In this document: positions 11,672-22,243 of the stretch, one piece after another
Position numbering within the stretch: position 1 is the first letter of the stretch
Layout of the letters: each line of letters begins with the position of its first letter
Assembly (NCBI GenBank): GCA_014191975.1
Contig: BJHG01000012.1
Coordinates: 1-40,463 of the forward strand
From: Methylococcaceae bacterium
GTDB lineage: Bacteria; Pseudomonadota; Gammaproteobacteria; Methylococcales; Methylomonadaceae
Direction of reading: 5' to 3'
DNA: 40,463 bases
Translations under genes and position numbers: made by a program
The notes under the pieces: generated by a model
Seen by the model: only the letters and a program-made list of their open reading frames with translations
Told to the model about the DNA's origin: nothing
Database searches by the model: none

Positions 11672-12955
11672 ATGGTTATATTGTGGACGGATGCGCTGAT
11701 TTTTAGCTTGCTACTTTTTGTAGCAGCAATTATTTATTTTATACGAGGTAAAGAACATTTAAAACGCCCATTGACGATAATTAAACAAAGTTTAATGGGA
11801 ATGTCTTCGCTGATAATTTTGCTATTTTTTATGACAATTGGCATTTTAGATTCGATTCATTTCAAACCCGCATCAAAAGATAACGAAATAATCAGCGTGT
11901 TGGATTATTGTGCTACACCGTTGCGTGAGCATGGTGAAAAAACCTATTCTGAACCTTTTGCAACCAAGCTTTACAATAAAGAAATGATTGTTGAGTCGAA
12001 TGAAAATACCCGCTGGGATTATCCACGGTTGAAATTTGGTGGAAAACATTTAGAAAACGATGCTCAAAAATTGAAGGATATTTTTCAAAAAACAACGATT
12101 GGCTTTGGTATTGGTACGGGAATTTTCACGTTATTGATTTTCGCTTTTAACCTTAAATCGAAATCCACTTTTTTTGTGTTGATTACCTTAAGTTCTACGT
12201 TGATTTATTTGTCGAATTTCTATCACGTTTTCGGTACGGACAAAGTCGGTGAAGACGTGTTTTATCAAACAATCAAAAGCATTCGAACAGGCTTGGTTCT
12301 CGGTACGTTGACAACGTTAATTTTATTGCCATTATCATTAGTTTTGGGAATTTTATCGGGGTTTTTTCGTGGCTGGCTTGATGACGCGATTCAATTTTTA
12401 TACACAACATTAAATTCCATTCCGAGTGTATTGTTAATTGGCGCATCGGTTTTGATGGTACAAGTTTATATGTCGAATCACGAAAACGATTTCACGAGTT
12501 TAATCGTTCGTGCTGATATGCGATTGCTGTTTTTGTGTTTGATTTTAGGTATGACGAGCTGGACGGGATTGTGTCGATTGTTACGTGCCGAAACCTTGAA
12601 ATTACGCGAAATGGAATACGTTCAAGCCGCGTATTCATTGGGCGTAAAACAACACACGATTTTGATTCGACATATTTTTCCAAACCTTATGCACATTGTA
12701 TTGATTTCAATTGTGTTGGATTTTAGTTCATTAGTGTTAGCTGAGGCGGCGCTGTCTTATATCAATATTGGGGTTGACCCCAGCACTTATAGCTGGGGCA
12801 ATATGATTAACGGCGCACGCTTAGAAATGGCGCGTGAGCCGATTGTTTGGTGGTCATTGACAGCCGCATTTTTGTTGATGTTTGCATTGGTTTTGGCAGC
12901 AAACTTATTTGCTGAAACGGTGCAAACTGCTTTTGATCCGAGGCGAAATCAGTAA
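11672..12955 (+). CDS. ABC transporter permease, OppC/DppC type, with long N-terminal extension
   Basis: The C-terminal ~230 residues are a binding-protein-dependent permease of the peptide/nickel class. The entry motif is HVFGTDKVGEDVFYQTIKSIRTGLVLG and the EAA loop is YVQAAYSLGVKQHTILIRHIFPN. The first ~190 residues hold about four extra hydrophobic segments and a soluble loop (about 60-145), which ordinary OppC lacks. No second permease, ATPase or binding-protein gene adjoins it, so its partners must be elsewhere and the substrate is unknown. Its last codons overlap the 3' end of the convergent TonB receptor gene by seven bases. Confidence 0.82.
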   Translation: MVILWTDALIFSLLLFVAAIIYFIRGKEHLKRPLTIIKQSLMGMSSLIILLFFMTIGILDSIHFKPASKDNEIISVLDYCATPLREHGEKTYSEPFATKLYNKEMIVESNENTRWDYPRLKFGGKHLENDAQKLKDIFQKTTIGFGIGTGIFTLLIFAFNLKSKSTFFVLITLSSTLIYLSNFYHVFGTDKVGEDVFYQTIKSIRTGLVLGTLTTLILLPLSLVLGILSGFFRGWLDDAIQFLYTTLNSIPSVLLIGASVLMVQVYMSNHENDFTSLIVRADMRLLFLCLILGMTSWTGLCRLLRAETLKLREMEYVQAAYSLGVKQHTILIRHIFPNLMHIVLISIVLDFSSLVLAEAALSYINIGVDPSTYSWGNMINGARLEMAREPIVWWSLTAAFLLMFALVLAANLFAETVQTAFDPRRNQ

Positions 12956-15015
12956 CTCAGGCGAATCCCGACTTCTGCGCTACGTCCTGCTTCGGGCGCA
13001 AAATTTCGTAAATACGACACGGAACTGCGGATATTTTCATCGAGTAAATTTTTACCTTTCGCAAACAGCAAAATTTCAGATTTTGCAAAACTCGCTATTT
13101 TGTATTGTGTTCCGACATTCAACAATAAATACGCAGGCGTGGTGGTTTCGTTTTCGCCCGAATTTGTTTGTTCTTCACCGCGCGTTAAACGCACATTGCC
13201 TGAAAACGCATTTTTTTCATAACTCAACTGCGTGCCGTAACGCAACGGCGGCATTCTCGGCACGTTGCCACCTTTATCAAACGTGCCGCGCGTGTAATCG
13301 CTAAACAAGGTTAAATCCACCGCGCCAAATTTATTATCGAGCAACGGGAAAACCGTTTTGGCTTCAAACCCTTTGAAAATCGCGGCTTGTTGCTCGCTGT
13401 GTAAAATCGGAAAACATTCGGCACAATCTGTGTTATTTGCTACAAATTCGCCATCTTCCGCGTTAAATAATTGCGCTGAATCGCGTTGCTGATAAATGTA
13501 ATCGCTCACCCAATTATGAAAAAAGTTGAAATCGGCTTGCACCCAAGACGCATCAAATTGATAACCTAAATCCAAATTATTCGACAATTCTTTTTTCAAA
13601 TTTGCGTTACCAACTTCATAACTGCGTGTTGCGTGATGAAAACCGTCCGAAAATAATTCTTGAATTTGCGGCGCACGTTGCGAATGCGTGAACGCTAAAC
13701 TCAATTTATTTTGTGAATTCATTTGCCACATCGCCGAAGTCGAACCGCTCAACGGAATGTACGAAACATCGTTTCGACCTTCGGGCGTGATTTGCGTCGA
13801 TTCAGCCCGCCCGCCTAATTCATAAGTCACCGCGCCGACTTTGAGCGATTCGACGTTAAAAATTCCATAAGTCGCAATGTCGGATTTTGGAACGATTTTG
13901 CCTTCTTCGCCCAAACCTTGAAAAATGCTGTTTGTCGATTGAAAACCTAAAATACCTTTGTTATTTTTAATTAGTGGCGCGTGTTCGAGTTCAAAACGGC
14001 TTTCGTAAGTTTCATTTAAAAATACCGTTCCCGCGACATTGCCATCAAATTCGGTGTGCGCGTAATCGGTGTAACCAAATTTGAGTTTGGCTTTTTCGAT
14101 AAACGCGAATGGATTATTGAGCTGACTTTTAAAATCGTATTTGGTTTGTTTCATTTCAACATGAACAGGCGTTTCGCCGTGTCCATCGGGTGGAATGCCG
14201 TAATTTCTTTCGGTTTGATTGATTGCCGCACCGATTAAACCCACGTCTCCAATCATTGAAAAACCCGCGCTTCCGCCTCGCGCTCGACTTTGCGTATTGT
14301 CCGTGAAGCCATAAGTATTTTGTAATTCACCTGCGGGAACAGCGTTAAAACTGGGGTCATGTTGACGCGCTCGCGCTTCGTCAATTGCTGCGCCGCCAAT
14401 GCTGGTATTTCCTGCGTCACGATAAAAACCGTCAACGTGATACGCGAAATTATTTTTGCCGCCTTCAACTTTCAACGCGCTTGACGATTCGTCGGTGGCG
14501 GAATCGTAACGTTGTTCGCCCGCGCCGCCAATGACTTTGTCGAACATTTTTTCAGGCATGCGATTGTCAATCACGTTCACAATGCCGCCCATCGCGCCAC
14601 TTCCATAAAGCAACGTTGAAGGCCCGCGTAAAATTTCAACTCGTTCGGCAATAATCGGATCAACGCCTGTGGCGTGGTCTGCGCTTAATGAGGACGCATC
14701 ATTATTGCCCAAACTGTTTTGTAATACTTTGACGCGCGAACCCGATTGCCCACGAATGACGGGAATTCCCACGCCTGAACCAAACGATTGATTGGTTACG
14801 CCGAGTTCATTTTGCAAGGTTTCGCCCAGTGTTGAACCTACTTTTGAACGCAATTCTGCACCGTCTAAAATCGTAATCGGATGCGCCGAATCATCAACCG
14901 ATTCCACAAACGGTGCGCTGACAATCATGTCATCGAGTTTTTGCACAAACTCATCGGCGTAAATTGGCACGGTAAAAATAGGCAATAACAACAACGGTAT
15001 TTTTTTCAATTTCAT
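12949..15015 (-). CDS. ZnuD-like TonB-dependent outer-membrane receptor
   Basis: A TonB-dependent receptor with a signal peptide (MKLKKIPLLLLPIFTVPIYA), a plug domain (about 25-150, with IPVIRGQSGSRVKVLQN and VEILRGPSTLLYGSGAMGGIVNVID) and a 22-strand barrel ending in aromatic residues. The plug resembles the zinc receptor ZnuD of Neisseria (SLSADHATGVDP segment), and histidine-rich loops such as GFHHATRS fit metal uptake. The ATG at 15015 is chosen because GGAG lies just upstream; a start four codons earlier would put that site inside the gene. It is the last gene of the Zur operon, which supports zinc as the ligand. Confidence 0.88.
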   Translation of the reverse strand: MKLKKIPLLLLPIFTVPIYADEFVQKLDDMIVSAPFVESVDDSAHPITILDGAELRSKVGSTLGETLQNELGVTNQSFGSGVGIPVIRGQSGSRVKVLQNSLGNNDASSLSADHATGVDPIIAERVEILRGPSTLLYGSGAMGGIVNVIDNRMPEKMFDKVIGGAGEQRYDSATDESSSALKVEGGKNNFAYHVDGFYRDAGNTSIGGAAIDEARARQHDPSFNAVPAGELQNTYGFTDNTQSRARGGSAGFSMIGDVGLIGAAINQTERNYGIPPDGHGETPVHVEMKQTKYDFKSQLNNPFAFIEKAKLKFGYTDYAHTEFDGNVAGTVFLNETYESRFELEHAPLIKNNKGILGFQSTNSIFQGLGEEGKIVPKSDIATYGIFNVESLKVGAVTYELGGRAESTQITPEGRNDVSYIPLSGSTSAMWQMNSQNKLSLAFTHSQRAPQIQELFSDGFHHATRSYEVGNANLKKELSNNLDLGYQFDASWVQADFNFFHNWVSDYIYQQRDSAQLFNAEDGEFVANNTDCAECFPILHSEQQAAIFKGFEAKTVFPLLDNKFGAVDLTLFSDYTRGTFDKGGNVPRMPPLRYGTQLSYEKNAFSGNVRLTRGEEQTNSGENETTTPAYLLLNVGTQYKIASFAKSEILLFAKGKNLLDENIRSSVSYLRNFAPEAGRSAEVGIRLSY

Positions 15016-15030
15016 CACATTCTCCATTTT

Positions 15031-16020
15031 TTAAATTTGTTTCACTTTTTGTAATTTAGCCATCAAATCTTCAGCAAGATTAACCAATTCACCATCGGTA
15101 ATAAAAACTAAGCGTCCAACTTCATCATTGAATTCTCGCATTTCTAAAAAAGTCGGCGGATGCAAATAACCATTTCCGCCTTGCACAATCATTGGTTTTT
15201 TATGTTCTTGGGTATAAATCACGCCTTTCACGCGCACTAATTCATGGTGATATGTGGTCAGCAAATCAATTAAAACCACTTGTAACAAATTCCATTCAAT
15301 TCGATTTTCAAAACGCAAACAAATAATTTTAAAACGTTTCGCCGTTAAATCGTCTTCGACTTGATTGCGTTTCAATGTTTTTTTCTCAGCGGTTTGTTGT
15401 GTAAAAAGTAAGCTCGGCGAAATCGCGCCAAATGGCGCGTTGATTTTGGTGGCGTTAGGCGCGAATTTCTCAATCGTTGTAAAACATTTTTGAATTTGCC
15501 GCTCCGTGACTAAATCGGCGTGCGTTAAAACAACGGTATCTGCCCACGCGAGTTGCGCTTGCATTTGTGGAAAGCGCGACACGTTTTCATCAGAAATTGC
15601 AGAAAATGTGCTGATAACATTTTGCAAACGGTAACGCGCAGATAACCATTTTTGCGTTAATAAAATATCTAACACAGGTTCTGGATTCGCAACGCCGCTA
15701 GTTTCAATAATGACGTAATCAAACGGTTTTTCAGTTTGACTTTCCCACGCCATGCGTAAATTTTTAAGCATTGGCATTAACGCATCGCGTGTTTGACAAC
15801 ACAAACAACCACCAACCAATGTTGCTTTGGGTGCTTGATGTTTTTGCAACAAATCTTGGTCAATCGGAATCGTGCCGAATTCGTTAATAATCACCGCTGA
15901 TTTTGGAAAATGATGCAACAGCGAATTTAACAACGTGGTTTTGCCGCTTCCTAAAAAGCCGCTAATCACGATGACTGGAATTTGCTCAATAATTTTAATT
16001 TTCCGACTGACTGGATTCAT
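15031..16020 (-). CDS. COG0523 (CobW/CBWD) GTPase, copy 1
   Basis: A G3E-family P-loop GTPase, 329 aa from the ATG at 16020; a GTG four codons earlier is possible. Walker A is SGFLGSGKTTLL near residues 20-31, the family metal-binding CxCC motif is GGCLCC, Walker B is YVIIETSGVANP, and the base-recognition motif is degenerate (LTHADL instead of NKxD). A CobW_C domain follows (KGVIYTQEHK). COG0523 proteins are metallochaperones or insertases, many of them for zinc. It overlaps the fhcA 3' end by 26 bases and precedes znuD, so it is cotranscribed. It is the most divergent of the three copies here. Confidence 0.9.
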   Translation of the reverse strand: MNPVSRKIKIIEQIPVIVISGFLGSGKTTLLNSLLHHFPKSAVIINEFGTIPIDQDLLQKHQAPKATLVGGCLCCQTRDALMPMLKNLRMAWESQTEKPFDYVIIETSGVANPEPVLDILLTQKWLSARYRLQNVISTFSAISDENVSRFPQMQAQLAWADTVVLTHADLVTERQIQKCFTTIEKFAPNATKINAPFGAISPSLLFTQQTAEKKTLKRNQVEDDLTAKRFKIICLRFENRIEWNLLQVVLIDLLTTYHHELVRVKGVIYTQEHKKPMIVQGGNGYLHPPTFLEMREFNDEVGRLVFITDGELVNLAEDLMAKLQKVKQI

Positions 16021-16726
16021 AAGGTTTGCCACATTGGTGGGAAAAAAACCGCTCGGTGTCGGTTTGATTAAAACTCACATCTTCCACCTGAAAATTATGC
16101 AATTTTAAATTATAAAATTGGTCGTAATAATCTTGAACGTCGCGTTTAATCTGTCGCTCAAAATACGGTTGAATTGTTTGCGTTGTGCCATTTTTTCGCA
16201 TTTTCACATCGCCATTTTTTACGACTAATTCGCCATTTTTAAAGACTAAATCTGCACGATTAAACATCGCTTCTTTGTCCGTTTGCGGATGATAAACCGC
16301 AATATCCGCAATTGCGCCTGGCTTTGTGTGTCCACGGTCTTTCAAACCCAGCATTTGTGCGGCGGCGGTGCGCGTCATAATGGCGATTTCATAAAGCGAA
16401 AATTCTTTTTTCAAATCCTTTAACAAACTCATTTCAACGGCTTCGGGATGCAATTTCGCGATACATTCCAAACGAAATTCAACATCCATCAGCAACCGAA
16501 TCAAATGCGGGTAACTGGTAAAAGGTGCGCCATTTGGATGATCGGTCGTGAAAAATAATCGCCACGGATCGTCAGCTAATAAGAAAATTTCTAAGCCAAT
16601 TAACCATTGCAAACTGTTCACAAAACTTTTTGCTTGATAACGATACGGCACAACGCCGCCGCTCCCTTCGCATTCGCCATCCAAAACCACCCATTTTTTA
16701 GGATTGGCATCGTGACGACGACTAAA
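15995..16726 (-). pseudogene. fhcA: FhcA/FwdA homologue, C-terminal part behind an in-frame TAA
   Basis: This is the remaining part of the fhcA gene, in the same reading frame as the upstream part and separated from it only by TAA at 16727-16729. It continues the family sequence without a gap: FSRRHDANPKKWVVLDGECEG, then FVNSLQWLIGLEIFLL, then TTDHPNGAPFTSYPHLIRLL. It holds the catalytic and metal-binding aspartate (TTDHPNG, about residue 377 of the joined protein) and the amidohydrolase C-terminal barrel strand GAIADIAVY. The only near start is GTG at 16690, without a convincing ribosome site, so independent translation is unlikely. Confidence 0.85.
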
Positions 16727-17671
16727 TTAAGCAATCACATCGCCGGAAATTGTCACGGTTTGACCAAATAAAACCTGTCCCACATCCATCGTGATGTTGG
16801 GATGTTTGTTAAAACCATCAATCAATTTTGCGGCGGCGGATGAAAAGCCGCGCGAGCCTTCATTGCCATAACCATAAAATTGAATATGTGCTAAGTGCAT
16901 CGGCAAACCTTGAGCCGCTTCCATTGTCGCAATTGCCGTGTCTACGTTGTTTGGAATGCCTAAATTATTGCAATGCACATGAACAGGATGCGGGAGTTGA
17001 ATGTCACACGCAGCGCGTTGCAACGTCTGCAAAATGTGCCGAGAACTTACGCCATAATCAGGCACAATATCGTCTAAATCAAAATGGCGAATGTTATTTT
17101 TAAACGGATTCGCGCCACCTGCGTTAATGACTTTCAAACCTAAACATTTTGTGGCGTGCAACGTCCACGCAACGTAATCATTGATTTGGTTTTGACTGGC
17201 TTTGGCGCGTAATAATCGCAACAAAAAATCATCATTGCCTAAAATCACTAAACCCGCCGTATCAATAATTGGAATATCTGCCATTTGCAAATGTGCGTCT
17301 AACGCATTCGCGGGAAAAATCGCAGGTTCAACCACGGTGGTGTAACCCATTTGTGCGTAACGATAACCAATTTCTGTTGTTGACCAACGAGCGGTACTAA
17401 ATGGATGATTTAACTTTCGTGCCATAAAATTACGGTGTTGTTCAGGCAATAACAAACGGGCTGTATTTACATTTCCGCCTGCAATGTGACTGTGAATATC
17501 CACCGCACCAGCCATGACGATTTTGCCTGAAATATCGTAATCGACATCAGGTATTTGCGAATTTTCAGGCGTTGAAATAATGAAACCGTCTGCAAACCAA
17601 ATATCGCCAATTTCACCATTTAGATTTTGCGCGGGGTCAAAAACTCGTCCGCCTTTTAAGCGCGTTAACAT
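16727..17671 (-). pseudogene. fhcA: Formylmethanofuran dehydrogenase/hydrolase subunit A homologue, N-terminal part
   Basis: FhcA is the hydrolase subunit that releases formate from formyl-methanofuran in the tetrahydromethanopterin C1 pathway of methylotrophs; FwdA is its archaeal counterpart. This 314-residue part has the amidohydrolase metal ligands His60/His62 (DIHSHIAGG), the lysine that becomes carboxylated (Lys180, LGLKVINAGG), His231/His233 (PHPVHVHCNN) and His262 (MHLAHIQF). It ends at TAA where relatives continue, usually with Gln, so CAA to TAA is the simplest lesion. The joined gene has 558 codons, normal length. The start overlaps the end of COG0523 copy 2. No fhcB, fhcC or fhcD gene is nearby. 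Confidence 0.88.
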
Positions 17672-18657
17672 GCGCTAACTCGGCAACTGTCCAAGGTTTC
17701 GTGTATGTATTGTTTGGGTAAATCGCGCCCAATAAACACCAACACCGATTGCGGAATTTCATTTCCCCAAACTACGCCCATCGTTTCATCCAAAATCATA
17801 TGAACACCTTGATAAATCACTTTGCGGTCACAACCTGAAATGTGCAAAATTCCTTTGTAACGCAATAAATCATTACCGTAAATTTTAAGCATCACATCCA
17901 TAAACGCCATGATTTTTGCAGCATCAAACGCCACATTACTGCGATAAACAAACGAGGTAATTCCCGCGTCATGTTCGTGACTCACATCGTCGAGAAAATC
18001 AGGTTCAATCTCTAAAATCGCACTCAAATTAAAGCCGCGAATATCCAAAATTTCAGCAATATCTGTTTCACCAAAATGAACGTGTTTAATCGGCGCACGG
18101 GCATTAATGCCGCGTAATCGCGCTTCTATTTTTGCAATTTCTTCAGCAGTGATTAAATCCGTTTTTGACAATAATAAGCGGTCTGCAAAACCGACTTGTT
18201 CCTCGGCTTCATGACAATGTTCGAGTTGTGTTAAAGCGTGTTTTGCATCGACAACGGTGATAATTGCATCGAGTAAATAATTGTCTGCAATATCTTGTTC
18301 AACAAAAAACGTTTGAGCGACAGGCGCGGGGTCAGCAAGCCCTGTCGTTTCAATAATGACGCGGTCAAAATGCAAGTCACCCTTTTCACGTTTTTGAGCG
18401 AGTTCGCCTAAAATTCGTACCAAGTCGCCACGCACCGTGCAGCAAATACAGCCATTATTCATTTCAACAATTTGCTCTTCGCCTTGAATTAACAAATCAT
18501 TGTCAATCCCTGTTTCGCCAAATTCATTTTCAATAACCGCAATGCGTTGTCCGTGTTCTTCGGACAAAATACGGTTTAATAAAGTCGTTTTTCCCGCACC
18601 CAAAAAACCCGTCAAAATAGTGACTGGAATTCGTGAAAAATGGTTATTTTCCAACAT
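17665..18657 (-). CDS. COG0523 (CobW/CBWD, YjiA-like) GTPase, copy 2
   Basis: A 330-aa G3E GTPase close to the YjiA type. Visible are Walker A LTGFLGAGKTTLL near residues 15-27, a metal site GCICC, Walker B VIIETTGLADPAP, an SKTD base-recognition motif (LLLSKTDL), a His/Asp segment HEHDAG before the C-terminal CobW_C domain, and YKGILHISG. It probably moves zinc to client apoproteins at low supply. Its stop overlaps the fhcA start (ATGTTAA), so the two are translationally coupled, which makes the FhcA homologue a candidate client. DUF1826 lies 20 bases upstream. Confidence 0.93.
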   Translation of the reverse strand: MLENNHFSRIPVTILTGFLGAGKTTLLNRILSEEHGQRIAVIENEFGETGIDNDLLIQGEEQIVEMNNGCICCTVRGDLVRILGELAQKREKGDLHFDRVIIETTGLADPAPVAQTFFVEQDIADNYLLDAIITVVDAKHALTQLEHCHEAEEQVGFADRLLLSKTDLITAEEIAKIEARLRGINARAPIKHVHFGETDIAEILDIRGFNLSAILEIEPDFLDDVSHEHDAGITSFVYRSNVAFDAAKIMAFMDVMLKIYGNDLLRYKGILHISGCDRKVIYQGVHMILDETMGVVWGNEIPQSVLVFIGRDLPKQYIHETLDSCRVSAC

Positions 18658-18677: not shown

Positions 18678-19355
18678 TTAAGCAAAATCCAGCGTGAGCA
18701 ATAATCGACGCGGTGATTTTTCTGATAATTTGGGCGAACGATGCACCGCGCCGTTTTGTTCATTGCCTTCCCATTTCGAACCCTTCAACAAGCCAATTCC
18801 GTAGGCGGGCATGATGCTAATGGCATCCATATCGCCTTTAATTAAACCCGAAACAACATCACTCAAACCGCCCGAACCGCTGCCTAATTTGGCGCGATTG
18901 ACAAACGCATCTTGTAAAAATTCCGTGCCAATTCCGCCATAAGTACACACCAATCGACACGGCACATGGTCAACATGAAATTTTGGACACATCGCTTTAT
19001 CAAGCATTCCAAAACGCAAACCGACATTTTCAAGTTCAAATAAATGGCTGAAAATATCAATCAAATGAACAATATCCGCGCAAAATTCGGCATAACCTTC
19101 AACCAAATGAAATCGTGACGGCAATAATGTTTGAGCGTTAAACGCTTTTACATTGATATTTTCAATCGCGTTCACCGTGCGAGGCTCGGATAATAAATGC
19201 GTAACGAACGTTTCAAGTTCATCAGAAACAGCGCGTTTCACCACGCAAATGTTCACGTCAGGTTTATAAATTTCAGTTAAATCTAATAAATTGTCAGAAA
19301 AATAAGTGTGTGAATGAGTGGATTCAAATTTAACAATTAGCGGTAATGCGCTCAT
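18678..19355 (-). CDS. DUF1826 protein
   Basis: A 225-aa DUF1826 protein. Family hallmarks are the C-terminal blocks MCPKFHVDHVPCRLVCTYGG (about residues 122-141), GTEFL, and LLKGSKWEGNEQNGAVHRSP near 189-208. The function is unknown. The family is repeatedly found beside COG0523 genes in predicted Zur regulons, and the conserved Cys/His cluster FHVDHVPC suggests metal binding. Here it sits between the ZIP transporter (14-base gap) and COG0523 copy 2 (20-base gap). It is intact, unlike its two damaged operon neighbours. Confidence 0.88.
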   Translation of the reverse strand: MSALPLIVKFESTHSHTYFSDNLLDLTEIYKPDVNICVVKRAVSDELETFVTHLLSEPRTVNAIENINVKAFNAQTLLPSRFHLVEGYAEFCADIVHLIDIFSHLFELENVGLRFGMLDKAMCPKFHVDHVPCRLVCTYGGIGTEFLQDAFVNRAKLGSGSGGLSDVVSGLIKGDMDAISIMPAYGIGLLKGSKWEGNEQNGAVHRSPKLSEKSPRRLLLTLDFA

Positions 19356-19369
19356 AAATTTTTAAGTGC

Positions 19370-19936
19370 CTAAGGAAGGAGAAATTGTTCAAAAATAATA
19401 ATGGATTGCATAAACGCAATGCCCGAAGCGAGAATGGCGGTTTGTCCAAATAAATTGTGAAGGGTGGAATGTTCATGTAACGCGGGAATCATGTCTGTCG
19501 CGGCAATGTAAATAAAGCCACCCGCTGCAATCGGTAATAAAAATACCAGTGACGATTCCGCGATTTGACTGAGAAATAGCGTAAATATCGCGCCAACCAC
19601 CACTGTTAATGAACAGTAAAAATTATATAAAACCGCTTTTTTCGGCGAAAAACCGCCATAAATTAACGCGCCTACGTCGCCAATTTCTTGCGGAATTTCA
19701 TGCGCGATAATCGCAAAAGCCGTTGTGACACCCAGAATCGGGTCGGTTAAAAAACTGCCCGCAATCAAAACGCCATCAACAAAATTATGAATGGCATCGC
19801 CCACTAAATTCATTTTTGCCATCGGCTGAATGGCGTTAGCTTCGGAATCGGTAAAATCCACGCGGTGATCGTGTCGCCAGCGCACAATTTTTTCTAACAC
19901 AAAAAAATGAAAACGCCGATTAACGTTGTTAAACAA
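19370..19936 (-). pseudogene. ZIP-family zinc transporter, C-terminal part after a frameshift
   Basis: This frame carries the second half of a ZIP permease. The metal-translocation helices are present: GDAIHNFVDGVLIAGS (the HNxxDG motif) and IAHEIPQEIGD (the HExPxE motif), followed by three more membrane helices. Homology begins at FFVLEKIVRW, about ten codons after this frame's first possible start; the codons before that are out-of-frame translation of the upstream part. Only a one-base change in the T7 run (19901-19907 on the plus strand) separates the two parts. Confidence 0.88.
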
Positions 19937-20154
19937 ACGGTTGAAACGGAACCTTGTCGCGCCACCGCATCGGGAATCAAATGAATAAACGCATCGCCTA
20001 AAAGTACGCCGACGGCTAATGCGACTAAATATGGCACAATTTGTTGCAGTTTTTCGGGCTTAATCCACAACACAAACAAGCCACTTAACGAACTAAAACT
20101 CACTAAAAGACTCGCGCCAATAACCGCCGCTGGAATATCGGAAGGTAAATTCAT
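19894..20154 (-). pseudogene. ZIP-family zinc transporter, N-terminal part before the frameshift
   Basis: The first 84 or so residues of a ZIP-family metal permease: helix 1 (about 8-30), a short cytoplasmic loop, helix 2 with the conserved GVLLGDAFIHLIPDA, and helix 3 (TTLIGVFIF). It then stops with LC and TAG, whereas relatives continue with FVLEK. Adding one T to the seven-T run would join it in frame to the next segment and give a normal ZIP of about 260 aa. Its ATG overlaps the stop of the 54-aa small gene (ATGA), so initiation is probably coupled. Importing zinc fits the Zur operon. Confidence 0.85.
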
Positions 20155-20315
20155 TTTGAAAATTCAAAGGTTACGTTATGAACAAGAGCTTTTTTGTTTG
20201 TCGAACCATAAACAAAATTCGCAATTGAATCGGGTAACCAATTCAAAAAAACGTAACTCAGCATGACGCTAAACACGACCAAAAATACACGGTTTAATAA
20301 TTTTGCTGAAGTCAT
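20151..20315 (-). CDS. Small single-span membrane protein in the zinc operon (54 aa)
   Basis: An unrecognised 54-aa protein. The ATG (20315-20313) overlaps the TGA of COG0523 copy 3 and its own TGA (20153-20151) overlaps the ATG of the ZIP gene, both as ATGA. That double coupling argues that it is really translated. The peptide begins MTSAKLLNRVFLVVFSVML; residues about 9-27 form one hydrophobic helix, with a polar C-terminal tail (about 28-54) that contains a single His and no Cys. The topology suggests a tail facing one side of the inner membrane. A role as a partner of the ZIP transporter is inferred from position only. Confidence 0.65.
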   Translation of the reverse strand: MTSAKLLNRVFLVVFSVMLSYVFLNWLPDSIANFVYGSTNKKALVHNVTFEFSK

Positions 20316-21472
20316 GCGATGTCACCGTTTTCAATTTCGTCCAAAAACCAAACAGGAAATTCATCTTTATAATCGCGCCACACATTTTCGCCTACGGCTA
20401 ATTCCTGATCGGTTAATAAACACGCATTTAATTCGGCAATCGCTTTCTGTTCATCCATATTTTGCCCGATGAAAACCAGTTCTTGCTTGCATTCGTCAAA
20501 CGATTTTTGCCACTGTCCCGCGCAACCGTGCTGCATTGTTCCGCCTGCTTGTGACCAGGAACCCGCCCATTCTGGACGCGACGCTAACCAAAAAAAGCCT
20601 TTTGAACGTAATAATGTGCCGTTATTCCATTCGTCACGATGCAAATAATCATAAAAACGTTCGGTGTGAAAAGGACGTTTTGCCTGAAATACGAAACTCG
20701 TAATGCCGTATTCTTCGGTTTCAGGTTTGTGCGTGCCGCGTAATTCTTGCAACCAGCCAGCGGCTTGTTCGGCTTTTTCAAAATCAAATTTTTGCGTATT
20801 TAAGATTTTTTCTAATGGCACAACGCCCATCATCATGGGGATAATTTCGGCATCACGATTTAAATTTTGTAAAATCGCGGTGAGATTTTCCAATTCGTCG
20901 CGGCTGATTAAATCAACTTTTGAAATTAAAATAACGTTGCTGAATTCAATTTGTTCAACTAATAAATCTGAAATGTTGCGCTCGTCTTCGTCGCTAATTT
21001 CGGCATGAATGTCTTTGAGCGATTGCGATTCTAAATAATCACGCATGAAATTCACGGCATCAACCACCGTTACCAACGTATCTAAACGCGCTAAATCCGA
21101 CAAACTCACGCCATTTTCATCTCGAAACGTGAACGTTTCTGCAACAGGTAACGGCTCGGCAATGCCCGTCGATTCGATTAACAAATAATCAAAACGTTGT
21201 TCTTGGGCGAGCTGGGTAATTTCAATCAATAAATCTTCGCGCAACGTGCAACAAATAAAGCCGTTGCTCATTTCGACTAATTTTTCTTCGGCGTAATTTA
21301 ATGACATTTCGTTTTTAACGAGCGCGGCATCAATGTTGATTTCGCTCATGTCGTTGACGATAACCGCGATTTTTAAACCATCACGATTGGCTAAAATTGA
21401 ATTTAATAAAGTCGTTTTGCCAGCGCCTAAAAAGCCAGAAAGAACAATGACGGGGAGTTTTTTTGTGGTCAT
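20312..21472 (-). CDS. COG0523 GTPase, ZigA-like, copy 3 (first gene of the Zur operon)
   Basis: A 386-aa G3E GTPase of the longer ZigA/YciC-like type. Motifs are LSGFLGAGKTTLL near residues 11-23, VNDMSEINIDAALV, the metal site GFICC (in place of GCICC), LIESTGIAEPLPVAETF, and ISKVDL. The extended C-terminal domain has SKGFFWLASRPEWAGSWSQAG and a late EFPVWFLDE. Proteins of this type are induced by zinc limitation and thought to supply zinc to essential enzymes. A Zur operator lies 31 bases before the start codon. The TGA overlaps the ATG of the following small gene. Confidence 0.94.
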   Translation of the reverse strand: MTTKKLPVIVLSGFLGAGKTTLLNSILANRDGLKIAVIVNDMSEINIDAALVKNEMSLNYAEEKLVEMSNGFICCTLREDLLIEITQLAQEQRFDYLLIESTGIAEPLPVAETFTFRDENGVSLSDLARLDTLVTVVDAVNFMRDYLESQSLKDIHAEISDEDERNISDLLVEQIEFSNVILISKVDLISRDELENLTAILQNLNRDAEIIPMMMGVVPLEKILNTQKFDFEKAEQAAGWLQELRGTHKPETEEYGITSFVFQAKRPFHTERFYDYLHRDEWNNGTLLRSKGFFWLASRPEWAGSWSQAGGTMQHGCAGQWQKSFDECKQELVFIGQNMDEQKAIAELNACLLTDQELAVGENVWRDYKDEFPVWFLDEIENGDIA

Positions 21473-21502: not shown

Positions 21503-21517
21503 TGTTATATTATAACA
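21503..21517. promoter_or_regulatory. Zur operator of the zinc operon
   Basis: TGTTATATTATAACA is a perfect 7-1-7 palindrome, matching the core of the gammaproteobacterial Zur box (TGTTATAnTATAACA). It lies 31 bases before the first gene and 42 bases after the end of zur. Binding of zinc-loaded Zur would block the operon promoter. Confidence 0.85.
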
Positions 21518-21558: not shown

Positions 21559-22059
21559 TTAATTAAGTGGAGGCGTGTTATTAGATTGCGTGCAAGTTGC
21601 ACAAATGCCGTGAATTTCAATCGCTTGATGATGCGCGGTAAATCCTGCCAGCGCGAATTCTTGCCTGAGAGCTTGCATCACAGAATCGGCATGACGTTCT
21701 TCGACGTTTTCACATTGCTTGCAAATTAACAGCAATTGTTCGTGAATCGAGCGTAAATCGGTGCATCCGACAAACGCATTCAAACTTTCGACGCGGTGAA
21801 TAAAGCCTTGTTCGCGCAAAAAATCTAACGCGCGGTAAATTGTGGCGGGTTTAGCCGAGCTTTGTAATGGCTTGATGCGTTCGAGTAAATCGTATGCTTT
21901 CACCGCGTGATGGTCTGCCCAAATAAGTTCTAAAACTTGTTGGCGAATCGCGGTGAGTTGCACACCACGTTCGATGCATAATTGCGCCGCCAGCGTTAGC
22001 GCGGTATTGATGCAAAGGGAATGATTGTGTGGCGCGGGGTGTTCAGTAGAATTTGTCAT
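21559..22059 (-). CDS. zur: Zinc uptake regulator Zur (Fur family)
   Basis: A Fur-superfamily repressor, 166 aa from ATG at 22059 (MTNSTEHPAPHNH); an upstream start would add 15 residues and overlap the operator region. The winged helix has ATIYRALDFLREQGFIHRVES as recognition helix and wing. The C-terminal domain has CKQC and CATC, the pair of CxxC motifs of the structural zinc site, and a histidine-rich sensor segment (FTAHHQAIEIHG). The His-containing N-terminus is typical of Zur rather than Fur. The gene lies directly ahead of the zinc operon and has its own operator-like site, so it is probably autoregulated. Confidence 0.92.
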   Translation of the reverse strand: MTNSTEHPAPHNHSLCINTALTLAAQLCIERGVQLTAIRQQVLELIWADHHAVKAYDLLERIKPLQSSAKPATIYRALDFLREQGFIHRVESLNAFVGCTDLRSIHEQLLLICKQCENVEERHADSVMQALRQEFALAGFTAHHQAIEIHGICATCTQSNNTPPLN

Positions 22060-22083
22060 AAAAAATAAAAAGTGAGTATGGTT

Positions 22084-22098
22084 CGTTACAATATAACA
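22084..22098. promoter_or_regulatory. Probable second Zur operator, in front of zur
   Basis: Read on the minus strand, TGTTATATTGTAACG matches the Zur core with two mismatches in the right half; the left half TGTTATA is exact. It sits 25 bases before the zur start codon and could give autoregulation. Confidence 0.6.
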
Positions 22099-22243
22099 TC
22101 TCAATTCAAATCAGGTGCGATTGAAATTTATTTCTTAGGAGCATTTAATCTTCTAATGACTGTCTATTAAACCCAGCTAAACCCATATTTATATTTTCAG
22201 CTATAATTCATACATCTTTTATAAAATAGAATCGGTCAAAATT

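Follow-up and report, generated by a model that had tools for sequence, protein, structure and literature searches.

A second FhcA encoded in a predicted Zur-controlled zinc operon of a Methylococcales methanotroph is interrupted by a nonsense mutation

The DNA analysed here, referred to as the window, comprises positions 1 to 40,463 of contig BJHG01000012.1 from the Methylococcaceae bacterium assembly GCA_014191975.1. It carries a zinc-homeostasis gene cluster in which an FhcA paralogue, termed FhcA2, is split by an in-frame stop codon. The genes, assigned with Pfam and NCBIfam models, and the predicted Zur box are all on one strand and nearly contiguous, in the order Zur, Zur box, ZigA, ZIP, DUF1826, COG0523, FhcA2, COG0523 and ZnuD. 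The individual features are as follows.

12949-15027, minus strand: ZnuD-like TonB-dependent zinc receptor (NF038289, 408.7 bits, below the cut-off of that model; synteny)
15031-16032, minus strand: COG0523/CobW-family GTPase, overlapping the end of fhcA2; likelier start ATG at 16020
15995-16726, minus strand: 3' part of fhcA2, 243 codons and stop, carrying Asp377
16727-16729, minus strand: in-frame TAA (codon 315) within the FhcA paralogue, CAA in the nearest relatives (sequence and alignment)
16727-17671, minus strand: 5' part of fhcA2, 314 codons with ATG start, containing His60, His62, Lys180, His233 and His262 and lacking Asp377
17665-18657, minus strand: second COG0523/CobW-family GTPase
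18678-19355, minus strand: DUF1826 protein
19370-20154, minus strand: ZIP-family transporter, split by a frameshift
20312-21472, minus strand: ZigA zinc metallochaperone GTPase, first gene of the operon (591 bits, cut-off 600)
21503-21517, minus strand: Zur box TGTTATAATATAACA, perfect match, 30 bp upstream of zigA
21559-22104, minus strand: Zur repressor; likelier start ATG at 22060
22084-22098, minus strand: Zur-box-like site with two mismatches, upstream of zur

Since the intergenic gaps between zigA and znuD are short or the genes overlap, this region is likely transcribed as a single operon. The frameshift in the ZIP gene is located in a seven-T stretch (19901-19907), which is one base shorter than in the intact frame of the closest intact relative (G007); it may reflect decay or error and is a second lesion within the zinc operon of the window. 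A small frame at 20155-20318, starting MTSAKLLNRVFLVV and partly conserved in G007, lies between zigA and the ZIP gene; it possibly encodes a small membrane protein belonging to this operon. In G007 (L037, 11906-12387) the COG0523 gene that follows fhcA2 is without an internal stretch of about codons 86-252.

The Zur sites were predicted by a scan with the gammaproteobacterial Zur-box consensus. With at most one mismatch allowed, 38 boxes were obtained across the zinc loci (0.9 Mb) as compared to none in five shuffles of each, and 28 of the 37 such boxes in loci L051-L109 are positioned close before ZigA, ZnuD or Zur. In several Methylophaga loci (L093-L097, at about 10258) a near-perfect Zur box is found downstream of fhcA2 and does not head a ZigA operon.

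The TAA at 16729-16727 on the minus strand is codon 315 of the 558 codons of fhcA2 and is in frame in the assembled sequence, which reads GAT GTG ATT GCT TAA TTT AGT CGT at this site. The upstream frame of 314 codons (17671-16730) and the downstream frame (16726-15998, closing at the TAA at 15997-15995) add up to these 558 codons with the stop counted, and the gene contains this one stop and no indel. When joined, the frame scores 658.1 bits with TIGR03121 (formylmethanofuran dehydrogenase subunit A, equivalog cut-off 392.75) and covers the full model; the separate halves reach 381.5 and 260.9 bits, both under the cut-off. Residues 3-312 align to model positions 2-319 and the second half to positions 326-554. 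This bears out the first-pass annotation, which had described a TAA splitting an otherwise full-length frame with its family blocks in order.

A single C-to-T change from a glutamine codon had been proposed as the origin of the stop. Glutamine indeed occupies this position in all 95 aligned intact homologues (61/61 FhcA2, 21/21 canonical FhcA and 13/13 other FhcA), and among the nine nearest sequences, i.e. eight relatives and the sister species G004, the codon is CAA in eight and CAG in one, so that the most parsimonious change is CAA to TAA. Apparent stops in L012, L018, L033 and G022 turned out to be the natural terminal codons of these genes. Because 22 of the 30 intact genes in the window also terminate with TAA, the standard genetic code applies and a changed code was rightly excluded. 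The catalytic aspartate of the TTDHPNG motif, residue 377 of FhcA2 and equivalent to Asp385 of FwdA (PDB 5T5I), lies 3' of the stop, and a 314-residue product would therefore lack it, as had been anticipated. The frame is disrupted here and intact in its orthologues, as expected of a pseudogene, and the lesion is a nonsense mutation of the ordinary kind. The same allele was not found in viral contigs.

One claim of the first-pass annotation could not be upheld, namely that the interrupted gene is the fhcA of this genome. The genome was searched as a whole (2.13 Mb, 131 contigs, 97.4% complete), and a second, intact FhcA with 50% identity to the FhcA2 of the window was found on another contig (C63:6017-7636, genome G000). 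This canonical FhcA reaches 766 bits on the FhcA model, above the 658 bits of the window gene, and its gene adjoins fhcB (TIGR03129, 374.5 bits). One fhcC above the family cut-off is present in the genome, adjoined by FhcD, which was named by sequence and position. As the genome retains an unbroken Fhc set, the gene in the window is an extra FhcA and the methylofuran pathway is not broken. FhcA is usually encoded with the other Fhc subunits; FhcA2 has no FhcB nearby and is thus called an FhcA paralogue. The earlier reading had also not linked the gene to the flanking zinc-homeostasis genes; what the gene means and what follows from its loss are thus not as that reading implied.

The amidohydrolase subunit of the FhcA/FwdA family contains a binuclear zinc site formed by four histidines, an aspartate and a carboxylysine (PMC11656701). 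His57, His59, Lys178, His231, His271 and Asp385 of FwdA 5T5I correspond to positions 60, 62, 180, 233, 262 and 377 of FhcA2, and all six ligands are kept in 61/61 FhcA2 proteins, Asp377 being behind the stop in the window gene. With six ligands present, FhcA2 should be a metal-dependent enzyme with the same chemistry as FhcA. FwdA, which belongs to the formylmethanofuran dehydrogenase of methanogens, catalyzes the reverse reaction in archaea and is more distant from FhcA2 (E about 1e-97). The homology to FhcA of Methylorubrum extorquens (PDB 6S6Y) extends over the full length, and the His-x-His motif, the lysine, two histidines and the aspartate are all shared. Unlike M. extorquens fhcA, however, fhcA2 is located apart from fhcB, fhcC and fhcD in a zinc operon and is interrupted by a stop in the window. 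Few fixed positions (250, 314, 343 and 349) set the FhcA2 clade apart.

Zur-regulated paralogues of zinc enzymes that are linked to COG0523 have been described for nine families, HisI, PyrC, Cam, HemB, CysRS, ThrRS, AmiA, QueD and DksA (Haas et al. 2009, PMC2770081); FhcA is not mentioned among them. FhcA2 resembles these in that it is a zinc-enzyme paralogue with a canonical second copy in the same genome, clusters with COG0523, zur and zinc transport genes and has predicted Zur sites at the head of the cluster. FhcA is an amidohydrolase with a binuclear site of the same kind as that of PyrC. In the literature on Zur regulons, paralogues of the PyrC, HemB and DksA families lack ligands, whereas those of HisI, CysRS, ThrRS, QueD and AmiA keep them. 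A loss of ligands as in PyrC2 or HemB2 is ruled out for FhcA2, with six of six kept, and to judge from its sequence it would add another family to those that keep their ligands. In the open-access literature searched, no paper was found that ties FhcA or formylmethanofuran dehydrogenase to Zur or zinc starvation.

Across methylotrophs, FhcA2 is repeatedly found together with zinc-starvation genes. From 84,980 species genomes the 80 closest FhcA loci were sampled, and 61 of them belong to the FhcA2 clade, with members from Methylobacter, Methylomonas, Methylotuvimicrobium, Methylococcus, Methylocaldum, Crenothrix, Methyloprofundus and Methylophaga as well as one Methylophilaceae, one Filomicrobium and others. 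Of these 61 loci, 54 have at least two zinc genes and none has fhcB, whereas the 19 loci outside the clade show at least two zinc genes in no case and fhcB in 13. The corresponding Fisher test (p = 6e-13) overstates independence, since the loci share ancestry, and the range of genera covered speaks more strongly for the association. Zinc-associated copies form one clade (SH-aLRT 93) in a tree of 81 proteins, on which the context changes once between zinc and fhcB; the deepest rows, L118 and L119, sit on long branches and their placement is less sure. The canonical FhcA was also present in all eight named FhcA2 genomes tested.

A few copies of the clade are located outside zinc islands. In Candidatus Methylobacter titanis an extra copy (L070, 7992-9650) lies between a BioA-like aminotransferase and a BioD-like protein; no zinc genes were detected near it, and the same host has a zinc-island FhcA2 at L056. 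A related copy at L073 is likewise without zinc genes.

Between intact FhcA2 relatives dN/dS ranges from 0.07 to 0.16, a sign of strong purifying selection, and the gene is thus normally kept. The private changes of the window gene comprise 20 synonymous and 5 non-synonymous ones, with no clear relaxation; three private changes are at sites otherwise invariant in the clade, as compared to none or one in 18 relatives. The frame offers 219 single-base routes to a stop, and under the assumption of equal rates the lack of a second stop caps neutral divergence since the gene was inactivated at about 0.04 substitutions per site. The synonymous divergence between the window gene and that of G004 is 0.65. 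With no second stop and at most about 0.04 neutral substitutions as compared to 0.65, the loss of fhcA2 appears recent. Long-term neutral decay is unsupported, given the constrained changes and the single stop, and the sequence data argue for recency only.

The first-pass annotation had suggested inspecting the same codon in sister strains. The fhcA2 of G004 retains glutamine at codon 315, but one base is inserted near codon 130 and 8 bp are duplicated in tandem near codon 290. In the zinc operon of G004 (L041, 1-3639) the DUF1826 gene is frameshifted, and the ZIP gene is cut by a transposase-like (TnpB-like) remnant at the contig edge. Another lesion, a 2-bp deletion near codon 238 (window numbering), is present in the fhcA2 of G054, which belongs to another family of the order and is assembled in one contig. 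The majority of the remaining copies are intact: among the 33 FhcA2-range matches listed from 141 genomes of the family, the window copy is the only one with an internal stop, and shortened copies exist. As judged from these genes, FhcA2 is patchily distributed and has been lost repeatedly and independently in the window genome, G004 and G054.

It is unlikely that the stop stems from faulty sequencing or assembly of a fragmented draft genome, or that it is a minority allele, with the gene intact in most cells. The draft does consist of 131 contigs, the remaining frame is clean with private changes that look constrained, and the ZIP frameshift within its seven-T run is at a typical error site. 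However, a single consensus substitution is a rare kind of error, the other 30 called genes of the window have complete frames, and both lesions are in one operon. In addition, the sister and a distant genome bear different fhcA2 lesions, including the 8-bp tandem duplication, which would be an unusual type of error. Far less probable still is a functional split or recoded gene, in which readthrough or restart past the stop would yield FhcA2 or a two-chain enzyme. Both halves are still open frames that align to consecutive parts of the model, but codon 315 is never a stop in the relatives, the nearest in-frame starts (GTG at 16690 and TTG at 16684) have no clear ribosome-binding site, and the RNA structure past the stop is unexceptional (z = -1.5). 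Moreover, TAA followed by T is a strong terminator. With the stop not conserved and no strong structure behind it, recoding was rejected, and the initial view of a dead gene rather than readthrough stands.

FhcA2 might also be an amidohydrolase with another task, e.g. a deformylase or a zinc store, that was drawn into the zinc regulon and is not a subunit of Fhc. The absence of fhcB, fhcC and fhcD beside fhcA2 and the identity of only about 50% to canonical FhcA would fit such a role. On the other hand, FhcA2 scores far above the cut-off of the FhcA/FwdA equivalog model, matches M. extorquens FhcA over its full length with E = 5e-157, has the same ligands and catalytic aspartate as FhcA and co-occurs with the canonical protein in all eight genomes tested. 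We therefore regard another task as rather unlikely, if somewhat less so than a sequencing error.

The stop in the window is, in our judgement, quite probably a recent loss-of-function mutation in the second FhcA of a Zur-controlled zinc-starvation operon of a Methylococcales methanotroph. When zinc becomes scarce, Zur would leave the operon, and the COG0523 GTPases and the transporters would collect zinc. FhcA2 would then be produced as an alternative form of FhcA, the subunit with the binuclear zinc site, and would replace it inside the Fhc complex, aided by the two flanking COG0523 GTPases; we infer this replacement because no second FhcB was seen and a single FhcC was found. Scarce zinc may be held better with the help of the chaperones, or another metal may be used. 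In the lineage of the window the back-up would no longer be needed and would be in the course of being lost, with growth on ample zinc unaffected. Some points count against this explanation: all ligands are kept, and the sequence thus gives no sign of zinc-independence; the private changes of the window gene show no clear relaxation; and a few copies of the clade (L070, L073) are outside zinc islands. We lean, with a little more than even confidence, towards the broader view that methylotrophs carry a Zur-regulon zinc-starvation isoform of FhcA with its own COG0523 metallochaperones, that it sustains H4MPT/methylofuran-dependent formaldehyde oxidation when zinc is scarce, and that its repeated inactivation marks lineages no longer meeting zinc limitation.

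The result to retain is the Zur-linked FhcA paralogue, undescribed in the open literature searched, rather than the stop, which serves mainly as a caution that an interrupted 'fhcA' as seen here should not be read as a break in the C1 pathway. The Fhc complex carries out the formate-releasing step in the main formaldehyde-oxidation route of most methylotrophs. If our explanation is true, zinc supply would become a point at which methane oxidation is controlled, through a second FhcA that is conserved and apparently under Zur control, and the zinc-sparing paralogues would gain one more enzyme. Which proteins COG0523 metallochaperones serve is a long-standing question, and this FhcA would provide them with a natural client in hosts as tractable as Methylotuvimicrobium buryatense and Methylomonas.
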